This document shows positions 12,035-26,092 of a stretch of 32,975 bases of DNA, piece after piece. The stretch's first letter is position 1. Each line of letters opens with the position of its first letter. This DNA is from Ruminococcus sp. Its GTDB lineage: Bacteria > Bacillota > Clostridia > Oscillospirales > Ruminococcaceae. A model generated the notes under the pieces. That model did no database searches. It was not told the origin of the DNA and was given only the letters and a program-made list of their open reading frames with translations. The position numbers were made by a program, and so were the translations under genes. The stretch lies in assembly GCA_017523285.1 (NCBI GenBank), contig JAFWWU010000067.1, positions 1 through 32,975 on the forward strand, given 5' to 3'.

Positions 12035-12104
12035 GTATGTGTTAAATTTTGCAAAATCAGTTTATTATATCAGAATATAAATTTCTTGAAAGGATTTCTT
12101 GATT

Positions 12105-13118
12105 ATGAATAAAGGAAACAGACGAAGAAAAAGATACAGAGTCCGTTATGACCGTTTAATTATGGTCGGACTGATTTTTCTTGTTATTATATTTATTTTT
12201 GCTTCATGTGCAAACAGCTGTTCAAATAAAAAGGACAAAAACAAGAATAAAACTGGTTCATCTATAATTGACCAGACATCTGCTCCGAGTGGTCAGAACA
12301 ACAACAATATCCAGCAGGGCGATCCGGGAGGACAAAATCCTATTATGCCTCCTACTGCTACTGAATATACAACAGCTCCGCTTGAATATTCAGCAATCAA
12401 CAGCGGTGACCTTGTTCTTGTAAACTCACAGTATGAGTACAAATTCCCTGCAAGTGATATAAAGCTCGCAGATATTTACAGCAACAGAAACGATTGCTAC
12501 AGCGTAAGTGATATGACTGTAAGCCTTGATGTAAACGTTATCGCTAAAATCAACGCTATGATGACTGACTATTACACCAATGTACAGAATAATTATCTCA
12601 GAATTATCGGCGGTCACAGAACTAAGGAAGAACAGAACGACAAATACCAGAACGGTGTTTCAAATATTCTCGGTGGTTATTCCGATTATCACACAGGCAG
12701 AAGCTTCAAGCTCGGAATATTCCCTAAGGGAGAAAGCTCTAATATCTACAAGCCTGAAGGACAGTATGCATGGATTGACCAGAACTGCGCAAACTATGGC
12801 TTCGTTGTAAGATATCCTGCTGGTAAGGAATCCGTTACAGGTGATGATTCAAGCACTGCTATTTTCAGATATGTAGGCGTTCCTCATTCTGTTTATATGA
12901 AAGAAAATAATCTTTGCCTTGAAGAGTATATTGAAGCTATAAAATCATATAATCATACTAATACTCTTAAAGTTATGGTTGGCACAGAACAGTATGAAGC
13001 TTATTATGTAGCTGCAAATGTAAATAACGTTACAGAAGTTCCTGTTCCGTCAAACAAGACATACACTGTTTCAGGCAACAATGTAGACGGATTTATCGTT
13101 ACTGTATCACCAAAATAA
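12105..13118 (+). CDS. VanY-like (peptidase M15) protein lacking the zinc ligands, a probable pseudoenzyme
   Basis: A 337-residue surface protein. A basic N-terminus is followed by a membrane segment at 19-34 and 'FASC' with C35 as a possible lipobox, then a low-complexity Asn/Gln/Pro linker (about 43-95). An M15 D-Ala-D-Ala carboxypeptidase fold spans about 100-280: 'IIGGHRTKEEQ' matches the usual 'SGYRS...Q', and 'YGFVVRYPAGKESVTG' and 'FRYVG' are family blocks. In true VanY enzymes 'SEHNTGLALD' gives His and Asp ligands and 'EPWHFRY' gives Glu and His. Here these positions are Y195, K202, S250 and I253, so catalysis is not expected. A beta-rich tail of about 50 residues follows. The start at ATG 12105 follows AAAGGA. 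Binding of peptidoglycan stems without cutting is a plausible role (inference). Confidence 0.82.
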   Translation: MNKGNRRRKRYRVRYDRLIMVGLIFLVIIFIFASCANSCSNKKDKNKNKTGSSIIDQTSAPSGQNNNNIQQGDPGGQNPIMPPTATEYTTAPLEYSAINSGDLVLVNSQYEYKFPASDIKLADIYSNRNDCYSVSDMTVSLDVNVIAKINAMMTDYYTNVQNNYLRIIGGHRTKEEQNDKYQNGVSNILGGYSDYHTGRSFKLGIFPKGESSNIYKPEGQYAWIDQNCANYGFVVRYPAGKESVTGDDSSTAIFRYVGVPHSVYMKENNLCLEEYIEAIKSYNHTNTLKVMVGTEQYEAYYVAANVNNVTEVPVPSNKTYTVSGNNVDGFIVTVSPK

Positions 13119-17453: not shown

Positions 17454-18842
17454 ATGACTAAAGCTGAAATCTTTTTCAATCAGATGAAAAATAAAAAAAT
17501 TGCATTTATCGGTACAGGTGTTACCAATACAAATATTATAAAGCTTTTTCTTTCTAAAGATTTTGATGTTACTATCTGCGACAGAAAATCTCCTGAACAG
17601 ATGGGCGAGCTTTATGACGAGCTTAAAAATCTCGGTGCAAAATATATCATGGGCGAAAAATATCTTGATACCCTTACTGATTTTGACGTTGTTTTCCGTT
17701 CACCAGGTATGTACTTCAACAATCCTGCTCTTAAATCCGCAAGAGAAAAGGGTGTTGTAATCACCTCTGAGATGGAAGTTTTCTTCGAGCTTTGCCCTTG
17801 CAAAATCTATGCTGTTACAGGCTCAGACGGAAAAACAACAACTACAACTCTTATTTCTGAATTCCTTTCAAAGGCAGGTAAAACAGTTCATAAGGGCGGA
17901 AATATCGGCAGAGCTTTACTTCCTATAATCGAAGAAATCAAGGAGGATGATGTAGCCGTTGTTGAGCTTTCAAGCTTCCAGCTTATTTCTATGCGTCACT
18001 CACCTGATGTTGCTGTTATTACCAACATTGCACCTAATCATCTTGATGTTCACGGAACAATGGAAGAATATATTGATTCAAAGAAAAATCTCATACTTCA
18101 TCAGAATGCTTTTTCAAAAACTGTTCTCAACCTTGATAACGAGCTTACAAACAATCTTTCTGACCTTGTAAGAGGAAAGCTTGTTAAATTTTCAAGAAAA
18201 GCAGTTCCGCAGTGTGGTGCTTTCCTTAATGAGAATAATATTCTTTGCTACAACGACTACGGAAAGATTACCGAAATAGTAAAAGCTGATGAAATCAGAA
18301 TCCCAGGAATACACAACGTAGAAAATTACCTTACAGCTATTACTGCTGCATGGGGCGAAGTAAGCATTGATGATATAAGATATGTCGCAAGAGAATTCGG
18401 CGGTGTTGAACACAGAATTGAATTTGTAAGAGAGCTTGATGGTGTTAAATATTACAATGACAGTATCGCTACAAGCCCTACACGAGTTCTTGCAGGACTC
18501 AATTCATTCAATCAGAAGCTTATTGTCATTGCAGGCGGATATGATAAGAAAATCCCGTTTGAGCCTATGGCTGAAACAGTCTGCAATAAGGTAAAGCATC
18601 TTATCCTCATGGGTGTTACTGCTGAAAAAATAGAAAAGGCTGTTACAGAATCCCCTGCTTATAATTCGGAAAATATTAAAATTCACCACGTTTCATCTAT
18701 GGAAGAGGCTGTACAGAAAGCAAAGGAAATCGCTGTAAGCGGTGATGTTGTAACACTTTCACCTGCATGTGCAAGCTTTGACCTTTATCCTAATTTCGAA
18801 GTAAGAGGAATTCATTATAAAAATATCGTAAAGGATTTATAA
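17454..18842 (+). CDS. murD: UDP-N-acetylmuramoyl-L-alanine:D-glutamate ligase
   Basis: Adds D-glutamate to the muramoyl-alanine precursor in cytosolic peptidoglycan synthesis. The 462 residues fit the Mur ligase family. The N-terminal Rossmann-like domain starts 'KKIAFIGTGVTNTNI'. The ATP loop 'GSDGKTTTTTLI' lies at about 121-132, followed by 'ELSSFQL', 'NIAPNHLDVHGTMEEY' and the carbamylated-lysine region 'SKKNLI'. The C-terminal domain has 'NDSIATSPTR', 'AGGYDKKIPF' and 'LSPACASFDLYPNFEVRGIHY', which are MurD-specific. TGGAGT precedes ATG 17454. It leads a run of five genes with gaps of no more than one base, outside the usual dcw cluster. Confidence 0.96.
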   Translation: MTKAEIFFNQMKNKKIAFIGTGVTNTNIIKLFLSKDFDVTICDRKSPEQMGELYDELKNLGAKYIMGEKYLDTLTDFDVVFRSPGMYFNNPALKSAREKGVVITSEMEVFFELCPCKIYAVTGSDGKTTTTTLISEFLSKAGKTVHKGGNIGRALLPIIEEIKEDDVAVVELSSFQLISMRHSPDVAVITNIAPNHLDVHGTMEEYIDSKKNLILHQNAFSKTVLNLDNELTNNLSDLVRGKLVKFSRKAVPQCGAFLNENNILCYNDYGKITEIVKADEIRIPGIHNVENYLTAITAAWGEVSIDDIRYVAREFGGVEHRIEFVRELDGVKYYNDSIATSPTRVLAGLNSFNQKLIVIAGGYDKKIPFEPMAETVCNKVKHLILMGVTAEKIEKAVTESPAYNSENIKIHHVSSMEEAVQKAKEIAVSGDVVTLSPACASFDLYPNFEVRGIHYKNIVKDL

Positions 18843-21676: not shown

Positions 21677-22937
21677 GCTTTTTGATATTGATGAACGTAT
21701 TTTAAAGCTTGCAGAAAAAGCAGAAAAAAACTGCTGTGATACATTCAGAAGAATTGAAGAATGTGCAGAATATAACGGTGCAAAGGTGCTTAAAGCTTTT
21801 GCTGAAAACAGAGTAAGCGAGCCTTGCTTCTATGGAAGTACGGGATATGGCTATGGTGACATCGGACGTGTAACTATTGATAAGGTTTATGCTGATATTA
21901 TGGGTACTGAGGACGCTCTTGTGCGTCATAACTTCGTTTCGGGCACTCATGCTCTTTCAGTTGCACTGTTCGGTGTGCTCCGCACAGGTGATAAAATTGT
22001 TTCAATCACAGGCAAGCCTTATGATACTCTTGAAGAGGTTATCGGTCTTGCAGGCAAAGAGGGAAACGGCTCATTAAAGGATTACGGTGTTCTCTACGGA
22101 CAGGTTGACCTCAACGAAGACGGCTCGGCAAAGCTTTATGAAATCACCAAAGCTGTAAAGGATGCTAAGGTTGCATATATTCAGCGTTCAAGAGGATATT
22201 CTCTCCGTCCTGCATTTACTGTCGCTGATATTGAAGAAATGGTAAAGGCAGTAAAAAAAGGAAATCCTGACGCTATCGTTATGGTTGATAACTGCTATGG
22301 AGAATTCGTTGAAACAGCAGAACCTACAAATGTTGGCGCTGATATCATAATCGGCTCACTTATCAAAAATGCAGGCGGCGGAATTGCCCGTACAGGCGGT
22401 TATATTGCTGGCAGAGCAGACCTTATTGAGCTTTGCTCATACAGACTTACCTGTGTCGGAATGGGTAAGGAGGTCGGCTGTACTCTTGATATGAACAGAG
22501 AAATGCTGCTCGGACTTTTCTTTGCTCCCGATGTTACAGCAAACGCACTTAAAACATCTGTATTTGCAATTGAGCTTTTCAATATGATTGGCTTTGAATG
22601 TTCTCCTGCACGAGATGATGCAAGAGGAGATATCATTACTGCCGTAAAGCTTGGAAACGAGGAACTCCTCACAGCTTTCTGTCAGGGGATACAGAAGGGT
22701 GCACCTGTTGATTCATTTGTTACGCCTGAGGCATGGGATATGCCTGGATATACAAGCAAGGTTATCATGGCGGCTGGTGCTTTTACTATGGGTGCTTCAA
22801 TTGAGCTTTCCGCTGACGCTCCTATAAGAGAACCTTACGCTGTATGGATGCAGGGCGGTATTACATATACAAGCGGAAAAATCGGTGTTATGCTCGCATT
22901 ACAGGAGATGCTTTCTAAAAATCTGATTGAACTTTAA
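21657..22937 (+). CDS. PLP-dependent methionine gamma-lyase-family (YnbB/'aluminium resistance') protein
   Basis: The 426 residues match the YnbB family of fold-type I PLP enzymes: 'FYGSTGYGYGDIGR', 'HNFVSGTHAL', 'VDNCYGEF' with the PLP-pairing D211, and 'GSLIKNAGGGIARTGGYI' with the Schiff-base Lys K237. The end 'PYAVWMQGGITY' is also typical. Databases call this family aluminium resistance protein or methionine gamma-lyase-like, and the true reaction is not settled. The start at ATG 21657 is inside the GNAT gene and has AAAGGA upstream. It is the last gene of the operon. No clear terminator follows in 22938-23028. Confidence 0.9.
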   Translation: MNQNINKLFDIDERILKLAEKAEKNCCDTFRRIEECAEYNGAKVLKAFAENRVSEPCFYGSTGYGYGDIGRVTIDKVYADIMGTEDALVRHNFVSGTHALSVALFGVLRTGDKIVSITGKPYDTLEEVIGLAGKEGNGSLKDYGVLYGQVDLNEDGSAKLYEITKAVKDAKVAYIQRSRGYSLRPAFTVADIEEMVKAVKKGNPDAIVMVDNCYGEFVETAEPTNVGADIIIGSLIKNAGGGIARTGGYIAGRADLIELCSYRLTCVGMGKEVGCTLDMNREMLLGLFFAPDVTANALKTSVFAIELFNMIGFECSPARDDARGDIITAVKLGNEELLTAFCQGIQKGAPVDSFVTPEAWDMPGYTSKVIMAAGAFTMGASIELSADAPIREPYAVWMQGGITYTSGKIGVMLALQEMLSKNLIEL

Positions 22938-23028
22938 ATAGTTACAAAAAATCTGTTTTATGTAATCTTTGATGTAATTGTTTACAAAACAAATACAAAA
23001 TTGATAATATTAGGTTATATATTCATTA

Positions 23029-23063
23029 TAAAGGTTGACATTCACCTTTATTGCTGTTAAAAT
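23029..23063 (+). promoter_or_regulatory. Promoter of the PASTA pseudokinase gene, with a dyad over the -35
   Basis: TTGACA (23035-23040), 17 bases, TAAAAT (23058-23063) with an extended TGT. TAAAGGT (23029-23035) and ACCTTTA (23044-23050) form an inverted repeat around the -35 box, a possible operator. Confidence 0.75.
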
Positions 23064-23129
23064 AGATAATGGATGGTTGCAAAAATTTAAATTTATTCTG
23101 CCATCAAATAAATTTAAGGAGGAAATGCT

Positions 23130-25118
23130 TTGGGAGAACTTAAAATGTGCTATAACTGCTTGGAAAATTACGATGCTCAGAAATCTGAATGTCCAAGATG
23201 CGGTTACCTTTATGATACTCCGCATAATCCGAACTATATAGCTCCCGGAACGATACTCCATGACCGCTATATTGTCGGTGTTCTTATCGGCTATAACGGT
23301 GAAGGTGCGAATTATACCGCTTATGATAAGAATATGGGATGCAAGGTTCTTATAAGAGAATATATGCCTGCTGCACTCTGTTCGCGTGTAAAGAATAAAG
23401 CTGTTATAAGCGTAAATTATAATAATCTTGCTAAATACAAGGCTTTTATGGCTGAGTTTACTGAGCTTAACAAGTCGCTCGCAAGATTCAGAAACAACTC
23501 AAATATTATTCCTGTTATTGATATGTTTGCTGAAAACAATACAACATATACTGTTTCGGAATATATCGAGGGAATAAAGCTTCTTGATTATTTAAAGGAT
23601 AATGCTGGTGAGCTTCCATGGGAAAAGGTAAGAAAAATTTTCCCTCCGCTTTTCACTACTATCGGAATTATACATAACGCAGGAATTATCCACAGAGCTA
23701 TAAGCCCTGAAACAATTTATGTAACCGAAAACGGCGACCTTAAATTATCAGGCTTCTGCGTATCCTCTGTAAGAACAGCAGATGCAGGACTGGAATATGA
23801 GCTTTTCAAGGGATATTCTGCTCCTGAGCAGTATTCCGCAAGCACAAGCAGCCGTCAGGGTTCATGGACAGATGTTTACGGAATCTCTGCACTTCTTTAT
23901 CGTGTACTTACAGGCTGTATGCCACTTGACGCTTCAAGTCGTCTTCAGGATGATACTCTTTGCGAGCCTTCTGTACTCAACAAGAATATTCCTCAGCACG
24001 TTTCAAGAGTTATTATGGAAGGTCTTAATCTTTCGGGACGTGACAGAATTCAGACTATTACCGAGCTTGTAACAAAGCTTTTTGATGAGCCTGCACCTGT
24101 CGTAAAACCGATATCACACGCTAAACCATCTGTTCATGATGAAGATATGCTTCATACAATGCCTATCTCATATCCGAAACAGGCGCTCAGTTCAAATAAT
24201 ACAAACGATAATAATCCTTATCGTCAGCAGCCGCAGCAGAATAAAAACAATCATCAGAACAATCGTGGCGGTGGCTATTATGATGAATATGAATATGAAA
24301 GCGTAAGCACTATTGACCGCTTTAAAGCTCCTGTAATAATCGGTGTACTTCTTCTTGCTCTGCTTCTTATTGCAATTGTTGCAGTTGTAACTATTATGGG
24401 CGATGATAAGAATTCTGATTCTTCAAACAACAGCTATTATTCATCTTCTGTGCCTGATAATGTTATCCCCGGTGCTACTGACGCTCCTTCCGATGATTTT
24501 GACAGCACTATGCTTGACCTTAAGGGCAAATTCTTTGATATTACTCAGCAGAAATACTCTGAAAGCTTTACGCTTGAGAAAACAGAAGAATTCAACAGTG
24601 AATATGCAAGCGGACAGATTTTCGAACAGGATCTCGCTCCGGGAGCACCTTTCAAGAAGGGCGCAACTGTTGTAAAGGTTAAAGTAAGTAAAGGACCTGC
24701 TGAAGTCGTTATCCCTGATTATAAAGGCTTCACTGTAACTCAGTATGAAAGCAAGCTTACAGACGCAGGCGTTCCTTATCAGCTCATTGAAGATACATCA
24801 GGCAACGGAACTCCTAATTCTGTAACAAGAATTGAAGTAAGAGGCGAAAAGACTTCTCCGGGCAACAAGGTTAATATTGCTTCTGGCGAAAAACTTATGG
24901 TTTATTTTGTAATCAAGGATGCTACTACAACTACTGTAACAACTACAACTGAAGAAGTTACTACAACAACTGAAACTACTACAACTACTACAACAGTTCA
25001 GACTGAGCCACCTACGGAAGCTCCTACTCAGGCTCCGACTGAGCCACCTCAGCAGAATGATCAGCCTGTTGCTCCTCCACCTGAAAACAACGGAGATCAA
25101 AACAACAACGCTCAATAA
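23130..25118 (+). CDS. Zinc-ribbon/PASTA transmembrane pseudokinase
   Basis: A 662-residue Ser/Thr-kinase-like receptor. In order: zinc ribbon (C7, C10, C21, C24), protein-kinase fold (about 45-320), a Gln/Asn-rich linker (355-380), one membrane segment (401-423), two PASTA-like domains (about 462-520 and 526-594) and an outside Thr-rich then Pro/Asn-rich tail (599-662). PASTA domains bind peptidoglycan or its precursors. The kinase signatures are all altered: the VAIK Lys is R76 ('VLIREYMP'), HRD is HRA (A190) and DFG is GFC (G208). Structural motifs such as 'YSAPEQYS' and 'WTDVYGISALLY' remain. It is therefore expected not to phosphorylate and to act as a scaffold or ligand sensor (inference). 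TTG 23130 follows AAGGAGG; ATG 23145 is an alternative start. No partner phosphatase is adjacent. Confidence 0.9.
   Translation: MGELKMCYNCLENYDAQKSECPRCGYLYDTPHNPNYIAPGTILHDRYIVGVLIGYNGEGANYTAYDKNMGCKVLIREYMPAALCSRVKNKAVISVNYNNLAKYKAFMAEFTELNKSLARFRNNSNIIPVIDMFAENNTTYTVSEYIEGIKLLDYLKDNAGELPWEKVRKIFPPLFTTIGIIHNAGIIHRAISPETIYVTENGDLKLSGFCVSSVRTADAGLEYELFKGYSAPEQYSASTSSRQGSWTDVYGISALLYRVLTGCMPLDASSRLQDDTLCEPSVLNKNIPQHVSRVIMEGLNLSGRDRIQTITELVTKLFDEPAPVVKPISHAKPSVHDEDMLHTMPISYPKQALSSNNTNDNNPYRQQPQQNKNNHQNNRGGGYYDEYEYESVSTIDRFKAPVIIGVLLLALLLIAIVAVVTIMGDDKNSDSSNNSYYSSSVPDNVIPGATDAPSDDFDSTMLDLKGKFFDITQQKYSESFTLEKTEEFNSEYASGQIFEQDLAPGAPFKKGATVVKVKVSKGPAEVVIPDYKGFTVTQYESKLTDAGVPYQLIEDTSGNGTPNSVTRIEVRGEKTSPGNKVNIASGEKLMVYFVIKDATTTTVTTTTEEVTTTTETTTTTTTVQTEPPTEAPTQAPTEPPQQNDQPVAPPPENNGDQNNNAQ
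24924..24995 (+). repeat. ACT/ACA trinucleotide tract coding a threonine run
   Basis: Residues 599-622 of the pseudokinase are almost all Thr, coded by ACT and ACA in alternation with GAA and GTA interruptions. Such tracts can change length by slippage without a frameshift. They probably form an extended, possibly glycosylated stalk outside the membrane. Confidence 0.8.
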
Positions 25119-25124
25119 TAACAT

Positions 25125-25158
25125 AAGTCGGTTATCCGTAATTGATAACCGACTTTTT
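25125..25158 (+). terminator. Terminator after the pseudokinase gene
   Basis: AAGTCGGTTATC (25125-25136), loop CGTAATT, GATAACCGACTT (25144-25155), with the T run reaching 25158. Confidence 0.93.
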
Positions 25159-25179
25159 TATGTTTTTTATAAAATTATA

Positions 25180-25208
25180 TTGCTATTTTTCTCAAAATGT
25201 GTTATAAT
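25180..25208 (+). promoter_or_regulatory. Promoter for the SseB gene
   Basis: TTGCTA (25180-25185), 17 bases, TATAAT (25203-25208) with an extended TGT. It leaves a leader of about 105 bases. Confidence 0.75.
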
Positions 25209-25259
25209 TACTATTGTACCTTGATATTTCAATTACAGGTACAACTAATACTTTATAAA

Positions 25260-25300
25260 ATGCCGTTGTGCTGATATATCAGCAATTGAAAATTCGGCAT
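25260..25300 (+). promoter_or_regulatory. Hairpin in the SseB-gene leader
   Basis: ATGCCG (25260-25265) pairs with CGGCAT (25295-25300) around an inner perfect palindrome TGCTGATATATCAGCA (25269-25284). There is no T run. It ends seven bases before the GGAGG ribosome site, so it could stabilise the mRNA or control translation. Confidence 0.5.
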
Positions 25301-25321
25301 ATATTTTGGAGGATACATAAA

Positions 25322-26092
25322 ATGGCTGAAATAAATAACAAGGTTTTACTTGATTTAATCGCTGAAATGGAAAAAAACGCTACTGTGGATGCTCAGGAAG
25401 CTGTACTTAACGAAATCGTTACAAATGCAAAATTCCTTATTCCTGCTGTTGTAACTGAAATTCCGCCTGAGGAAGCAAAAAATCTTAAAAATCCTGAACA
25501 CAACACAAGAATTAAATTCAGTATGATTACAAACGACAAAAACGAAAACTACTTCCCTGCTTTTACTTCTATGGAAGAACTTTATAAGTGGCAGGAGGAT
25601 TATAACGGTAATACTCTTACACTCGGTTTTGATCAGTATGCACAGATGCTTGCTAAATCAAACGATTTTGCAGGTATGGTTATTGACCCATTCACACACA
25701 GCCTCATTATTGATAACAGAATGGCTGAAGAACTTGCTATTCAGAAAAGCCTGTATACAAAAGGCTCTGCGAAAAGAATTCTCAAAGATGGTGAAAAAAT
25801 AAGAATTTCACATCCTGAGGTAACTCCGACAGAAATGATTGAAGCTATGAAGGCTCACCTTGTAAATGAGCCATGCGTTGAAAAGGCTTATCTTCGTATG
25901 ATGACTAAAGAGAATAATGCTGAAAGTTATCTCCTTGCAGTTGATTTCAAAGGCGATATGGAAAAGGTATTTCCTGAAATTGCAGCAGCTGCACGTCCAT
26001 ATCTTAGTGGTAAGTTTATGGACATCGTTCCTGCGGATACAGGTCTTGGCAAATCAGTTGCTGACAGCACAGAACCATTCTATACAAAGTAA
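25322..26092 (+). CDS. SseB-family protein
   Basis: 256 residues with the two SseB modules. The N-terminal domain has 'FLIPAVVTE', 'KFSMITNDKNENYFPAFTSMEELYKW' and 'FAGMVIDPFTHSLII' (about 38-135). The C-terminal domain runs from 'KILK..EKIRISHPEVTPTEMI' to 'LSGKFMDIVP' (about 150-245). Enhanced serine sensitivity (SseB) was named from an E. coli overexpression phenotype; in Clostridia the domain is common and its function is unknown. I chose ATG 25322, with GGAGG at 25308-25312; the open frame extends 18 codons upstream through the leader hairpin and is not expected to be translated. It is a single-gene unit between terminators. Confidence 0.85.
   Translation: MAEINNKVLLDLIAEMEKNATVDAQEAVLNEIVTNAKFLIPAVVTEIPPEEAKNLKNPEHNTRIKFSMITNDKNENYFPAFTSMEELYKWQEDYNGNTLTLGFDQYAQMLAKSNDFAGMVIDPFTHSLIIDNRMAEELAIQKSLYTKGSAKRILKDGEKIRISHPEVTPTEMIEAMKAHLVNEPCVEKAYLRMMTKENNAESYLLAVDFKGDMEKVFPEIAAAARPYLSGKFMDIVPADTGLGKSVADSTEPFYTK

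Follow-up and report, generated by a model that had tools for sequence, protein, structure and literature searches.

PASTA kinases have been studied as sensors of peptidoglycan, and the roles of catalysis and of binding are hard to separate in them. The PrkC/PknB/StkP type, represented by the NCBIfam model NF033483, combines a cytosolic kinase fold, one membrane helix and extracellular PASTA domains. Pseudokinases are also known from bacteria, and the available passages of a 2025 review name seven families of them, ActPs1-3, GLW, CP1, DYD and DLHK (PMC12599244). In mycobacteria, the pseudokinase of MviN is described in such passages as being phosphorylated by PknB and as recruiting FhaA (PMC6180346, PMC12599244), and pairing through the N-lobe is reported, in an excerpt of the source, to stabilise or activate PknB and PknD (PMC3601408).

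The DNA analysed here, referred to in its full length of 32,975 nucleotides as the window, belongs to a Ruminococcus sp. contig (JAFWWU010000067.1) and encodes on its forward strand, where the flanking sites of the gene also lie, a 662-residue PASTA pseudokinase, read from a TTG-initiated open reading frame (23130..25118). A Shine-Dalgarno sequence, AAGGAGG (23116..23122), lies 7 bases 5' of the start codon, and the same layout and spacing occur in all 14 ortholog loci chosen for viewing, 13 of which start with TTG and one with GTG. A sigma-70-like promoter (TTGACA-17-TAAAAT, 23035..23063, 11 of 12 matches) is located in the gap 5' of the gene, and a terminator-like 12-pair stem that leads into a run of T (25125..25155) matches the consensus of intrinsic terminators. 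Based on these two sites the gene is suggested to form a single-gene transcript, although such consensus matches are little above those of shuffled sequences: promoter-like sites in the region number 15 against 9.3 +/- 2.6 in shuffles, weak evidence by itself, and terminator-like stems 2 against 1.2 +/- 1.2. No RNA regulator was detected at Rfam gathering scores within 22850-25350.

The product begins with a zinc ribbon (C7-x2-C10-x10-C21-x2-C24, 23148..23201), the cysteines of which are conserved in at least 90% of 90 aligned rows of its clade and are also kept in catalytically intact zinc-ribbon kinases. This is followed by the pseudokinase domain (residues ~41-318, 23250..24083), delimited by Pfam and by alignment with PpkA, by a cytosolic linker (24096..24320) that varies in both length and sequence, many relatives having only some tens of residues here, and by a transmembrane helix recognized by hydropathy (residues ~402-422, 24333..24395). 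Pfam assigns to the protein a Pkinase match of 67.8 bits and two PASTA stretches (24507..24692 and 24705..24878), the second being weaker at 25.2 bits against a cut-off of 23.2, and a Thr/Pro/Asn-rich extracellular tail closes the sequence (24888..25115). The extracellular PASTA domains lie C-terminal to the single membrane helix, and PASTA and Pkinase occur together in all 65 members scanned. The zinc ribbon, the APEQYS motif, the membrane segment and the PASTA domains named in a first-pass annotation of this gene are all real, as judged by cysteine pattern, hydropathy and Pfam. NF033483 is the best-scoring NCBIfam model, in keeping with the shared architecture; however, the score of 163.9 bits (160.3 for a 600-residue stretch) does not reach the curated cut-off of 450, and the window protein differs from PrkC/PknB/StkP in having the zinc ribbon and an EYMP segment and in lacking the catalytic Lys, Asp and Asp.

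Following the operational definition of PMC12599244, proteins are termed pseudokinases here when any of the beta-3 Lys, the HRD Asp or the DFG Asp is lost, and the window protein has lost all three. The replacements proposed from the first inspection of the sequence were borne out: R76, A190 and G208 fall on the VAIK Lys, the HRD Asp and the DFG Asp when aligned with the solved PpkA (IKEYMP, HRDIS and DFG) and are placed likewise by alignment with intact zinc-ribbon kinases, while alignment with the PrkC of the same genome positions A190 and G208 identically and leaves position 76 in a gap. The beta-3 segment, LIREYMP (23349..23369), has R76 where the ATP-binding Lys is expected and, in addition, L74 at the position of the adenine-pocket Ala; the catalytic loop, HRAISPET (23691..23714), has T195 instead of Asn next to A190 instead of Asp; and DFG is replaced by GFC (residues 208-210, 23751..23759), with C210 at the Gly position. 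The Gly-rich loop is also altered (GYNGEGANY, 23289..23315), E58 standing where intact relatives have Phe. The P+1 segment GYSAPEQYS (23811..23837) is retained, and its E233 is invariant in the 90 rows.

These losses are shared across the clade. Near relatives were compared in an alignment of 106 rows, the window included, of which 105 cover the catalytic loop and the gapped one probably represents the C-terminal piece of a split gene (L078). The position of the HRD Asp is occupied by Ala in 86 of these rows, by Gly in 19 and by Asp in none, Asn195 is replaced by Thr in 103 of 105, the beta-3 Lys position holds Arg in 95 rows, Lys in 6 and Asn in 4, and the DFG Asp position holds Gly in 82 and Asp in 8. 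A wider set was sorted, by whether the catalytic loop contains HRD, into 169 Asp-less and 41 HRD-bearing rows, so that the counts of 0 Asp in 169 and 41 of 41 hold by definition; thinning at 75% identity reduced them to 74 and 34, respectively. The full loss of all three residues, which the first-pass annotation had claimed, holds for the window and for 130 of the 169 rows with the window counted, but not for those that retain the beta-3 Lys (26/169) or the DFG Asp (20/169), seven of which keep both. Thr replaces Asn195 in 146 of the 169.

Positions of the nucleotide site vary among the pseudokinase rows, whereas those of the scaffold are fixed. The VAIK Ala (position 74) is retained in 1 of 167 rows, being elsewhere mostly L, M, E or T, and is present in all 34 thinned intact relatives; G54 is kept in 7 of 74 thinned rows and G210 in 3 of 90. 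Invariant in the 90 rows are Y62, E77, H188, E233, D248, Y250, G262, R271 and R306, which we take, from general knowledge of kinases, to be scaffold residues, E233 being that of APE and D248 that of helix F. Since the adenine-pocket Ala is replaced, mostly by larger residues, binding of ATP appears unlikely for the window protein and even for members that keep the Lys, although some of those retaining the beta-3 Lys and/or the DFG Asp may bind nucleotide. Other residues are characteristic of the clade (E58 in 60, W164 in 62, R215 in 67, A231 in 70, L260 in 62 and P288 in 69 of the 74 thinned rows) and are absent or different in intact relatives, L260 and P288 occurring in part of these. Such clade-specific constraints, arising after catalysis was lost, are the pattern that a binding module would be expected to show.

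The phylogenetic placement of the domain departs from the original view of the protein as a degenerate PknB/PrkC. A maximum-likelihood tree, for which no labels were supplied, was computed for 122 kinase domains, namely the window, the far rows and one in eight of the near rows, with four fragments excluded. In it the pseudokinases form one clade (SH-aLRT 100) that sits among the zinc-ribbon kinases and apart from the PrkC outgroup. A long-branched sequence from family f23 (L151) falls inside it, and one row (L205) is mislabelled as intact, its Gly loop reading HRD by chance and its catalytic loop being HGHISPASL. A second tree of 80 rows, sampling one in twelve of the near rows and alternate far pseudokinase rows and leaving out 12 named rows (fragments, near-copies and long branches, L173 among them), recovered the clade again with support of 100 and joined it to intact multi-PASTA zinc-ribbon kinases (SH-aLRT 89.9), a link that is suggestive only. 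The catalytic columns were kept in the alignments for both trees, and in neither does a sampled HRD-bearing member lie inside the clade, a result that does not depend on the sorting of rows by HRD. The search among relatives and in the tree for orthologs keeping Lys, Asp and Asp, with the window the sole mutated copy, thus found none, and the reading of the protein as kinase-dead by sequence, and conserved in that state, stands, with the HRD Asp in 0 of 105 near rows and a single, fully supported clade.

Identity values agree with the tree, the window protein being 34-35% identical to two intact zinc-ribbon kinases over the ribbon and kinase and 25% identical to the PrkC of its own genome over residues 104-319. 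It shares with the zinc-ribbon kinases of Clostridia the four-Cys ribbon, the K/R-E-Y-x-P segment after beta-3, the ISP catalytic loop and the EQY post-activation segment, and groups with them in the tree; these kinases, most of which appear catalytically intact, differ from it in keeping VAIK, HRD, the Asn and DFG, the label of intact being itself set by HRD. PpkA (PDB 5hnv) is the closest solved structure to the kinase part, a likeness established by sequence. All four cysteines are present in each of the 34 thinned intact kinases, so the ribbon is a feature inherited from the zinc-ribbon kinase lineage rather than an addition.

Zinc-ribbon kinases occur in several copies in some genomes, and the three scanned with Pfam carry 6-8 PASTA domains: L158 has eight together with Big domains, L154 seven, and L155 six together with Flg_new repeats. 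A further intact one (L181) shows PASTA with a home-made profile only. Such proteins constitute, in some genomes, a second type of PASTA kinase beside PrkC. Most intact zinc-ribbon kinases lack PASTA by the home-made profile, which was made from 5 seeds and under-counts. Two other zinc-ribbon pseudokinases were noted, one encoded at L173:10460-12355 (HGNIRPENI), whose long branch outside the PASTA clade in the 122-row tree suggests a separate loss of catalysis, and one at L235 (HGNICPDTV).

In order to describe the distribution of the gene, a family profile (A2) built from 65 relatives was used at a threshold of E <= 1e-120, set from a class-wide sample of profile searches. Matches were recovered in 207 of 221 good-quality genomes of the family, in 261 of 297 overall and in 113 of 126 genera, with exactly one match at this threshold, among the matches listed, in each matching family genome. 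The gene is retained in genomes of 0.7-0.9 Mb (G068, G087 and G160). The other 14 good-quality genomes gave no match at E <= 1e-120; five good-quality genomes with poor matches were searched again, and no full-length pseudokinase was found in them, the gene being there either absent or unassembled. PrkC-like matches, recognized by position and frame length, were found in these five, with one further short match in G265. In the class sample, matches at E <= 1e-40 occurred in 143 of 291 genomes; the nine places with at least 479 bits all belong to the window's own family (f1) or to one of the same order (f24), and the next, at 382 bits, is the intact zinc-ribbon PASTA kinase L155. In the loci taken from outside the order but within the class (L221-L241), HRD is present in every readable catalytic loop except that of L235, L238 giving no row. 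A scan of named genomes yielded 95 places, and 75 of the best 80 belong to records titled Ruminococcus; one record titled Alistipes senegalensis (L053) carries a Ruminococcus-type locus and is probably a mislabelled metagenome bin.

The selection acting on the gene is purifying. Compared with the nearest relative (L015), dN/dS is 0.038 over the zinc ribbon and pseudokinase, 0.095 for the PASTA domains, 0.23 for the membrane helix and 0.28 for the linker; by this comparison, constraint on the protein is strongest in the dead kinase. The long Thr/Pro/Asn tail mentioned in the first-pass annotation does exist but is weakly constrained, with a dN/dS of 0.17. The kinase-region dS is 0.77 against L015 and exceeds 1 against the four other relatives compared, for which the ratios are consequently rough.

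No operon conserved across the family was found in the flanks of the best 80 of the 95 named loci. Relatives of the PF06838 gene occur in 38 of these 80, and those of two M42 genes and of a GNAT-like gene in 33 each, counts in which some loci are short and in some of which the genes sit on the opposite side or strand; relatives of SseB, GlmM and GpmI were seen at L015 only. Only some of the 80 named loci have relatives of the upstream genes nearby, and none of 30 loci taken from other genomes does, intact-kinase loci included, so these neighbours are best regarded as local synteny. Also upstream of the gene, Pfam recognizes a VanY-like D-Ala-D-Ala carboxypeptidase (12099-13118) and a MurD-like ligase (17454-18842).

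An active PASTA kinase encoded elsewhere had been anticipated, and one of the five Pkinase matches in the genome is indeed a PASTA kinase with intact HRD and DFG motifs (G000:C125). This PrkC adjoins a PP2C-type gene in an order resembling rlmN-prpC-prkC-rsgA, the names being assigned by reading of the frames. PrkC was found in all 90 good-quality genomes sampled from the family, and in 113 of 119 when those of any quality are counted; its coexistence with the pseudokinase is observed but is uninformative, given that both are near-universal in the family. Two odd kinase-like proteins are also encoded: the first (G000:C59) contains YQDLN and has a vWA-type gene next to it, and the second (G000:C100) lies in a 1136-residue frame that contains CLDIKPEN and has a long C-terminal portion. 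The single FHA match of the genome, at the locus G000:C66:1849-4902, is a 143-residue protein with a transmembrane segment, whose gene directly precedes SEDS-like (RodA/FtsW-like) and PBP-like transpeptidase genes, as read from the frames. This order recalls the fhaB-rodA-pbpA arrangement of mycobacteria.

Taken as a whole, the clade probably represents a conserved non-catalytic PASTA receptor acting by binding, most likely in the cell-wall pathway of PrkC. Such a membrane pseudokinase would have arisen once, from a zinc-ribbon kinase with intact catalysis that possibly already bore PASTA domains, in an ancestor of the window's family and of at most two families neighbouring it. The PASTA domains are expected to place the receptor at nascent peptidoglycan, or to report on it, and the cytosolic pseudokinase and zinc ribbon would together serve as a binding module rather than as an enzyme. 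The receptor could then feed the PrkC pathway either by pairing with PrkC or by keeping a substrate or a reader protein bound. PrkC as the partner is a guess, yet a plausible one by analogy, given the PrkC and the FHA gene of this genome, the precedent of MviN and FhaA, and the N-lobe pairing of PknB and PknD. A more specific form of this proposal, offered tentatively, is that the whole family operates two PASTA receptors, the active PrkC and, as its obligate partner, a kinase-dead receptor that exerts allosteric control over it. HER2 and HER3 are such a pair of active and pseudokinase receptors, and PrkC with its kinase-dead companion would be their bacterial counterpart.

It is also conceivable, if rather unlikely, that the receptor works independently of PrkC and passes its signal to a cytosolic partner of its own, for instance through the zinc ribbon. 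The promoter-like and terminator-like sites of the gene and a kinase lineage different from that of PrkC would fit this, but no candidate partner was found alongside, and conservation of the neighbouring genes does not extend across the family. We regard as distinctly improbable a scaffold of the MviN type, in which the pseudokinase or its juxtamembrane linker would be phosphorylated by PrkC and the mark read by the single FHA protein found in the genome. The phosphorylation of the MviN/MurJ pseudokinase by PknB and the recruitment of FhaA, as given in the available passages (PMC6180346, PMC12599244), and the location of the FHA gene directly before SEDS-like and transpeptidase-like genes speak for it; however, the linker is unconserved and very short in many relatives, so a phosphosite there cannot be the common mechanism, and T216 of the activation segment is kept in only 70 of 90 rows. 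There is very little to recommend an unconventional enzyme that still binds nucleotide and catalyses another chemistry, as SelO or SidJ do: seven of 169 rows keep both Lys and DFG Asp, the NGEG of the loop is conserved in near relatives, and R76 could replace the Lys, as a passage of the review says of other bacterial pseudokinases (PMC12599244), but the adenine-pocket Ala is replaced in 166 of 167 rows and the catalytic positions differ among relatives where the scaffold does not. Decay of the gene, which the loss of three catalytic motifs might evoke, is refuted by the open frame, the common start site, the low dN/dS and the near-universal single copy, and decay of a PrkC copy in particular is ruled out by the tree placement together with the latter two.

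A role as a defence kinase was considered and rejected. The protein matches 32 PADLOC models, the best being PD-T4-6 at 118 bits, in what looks like general kinase similarity, and scores 82 bits with the NCBIfam model MAD6, whose cut-off is 460; a gene carried by almost all genomes of the family is not distributed as a defence gene would be.

If the clade is, as we favour, a PASTA receptor that acts by binding, it offers a natural case without catalysis, single-copy and near-universal, in genomes that include some below 1 Mb, where the role of PASTA without phosphorylation could be tested.

Among the pseudokinases described, MviN/MurJ (ActPs3) of mycobacteria resembles the window protein in being a bacterial membrane pseudokinase linked to cell-wall biology (PMC12599244, PMC6180346, in the passages available). 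It differs in belonging to Actinobacteria and in being fused to the lipid II flippase MurJ, with no PASTA domain described in those passages (PMC12599244), and its motif losses are others (VALT, Lsidhpsr and Y-- in Table 1 of PMC12599244). EssB/YukC of Firmicutes is, in passages of the review, likewise a pseudokinase in the membrane that has lost all three motifs, but it is part of a type VII secretion system and is described with neither PASTA nor zinc ribbon (PMC12599244). As far as the excerpts of the review go, none of its seven families is described with PASTA or a zinc ribbon, and it is by these descriptions that the window protein is set apart: DYD, the sole family listed for Firmicutes, is grouped with those keeping a canonical HRD and/or DFG, DLHK lacks a membrane segment and retains the HRD Asp, and ActPs2 shows the same change of Lys to Arg but has Asn for the HRD Asp and a DFG deletion (PMC12599244). 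In the open-licence literature, outside which most subscription papers fall, titles and beginnings of abstracts among the matches listed mention no PASTA pseudokinase in these bacteria. Judging from those titles, abstract beginnings and passages, the clade appears to be a family of bacterial pseudokinases absent from the literature found. It constitutes a family-level variation on two known things, the PASTA receptor and the bacterial pseudokinase.
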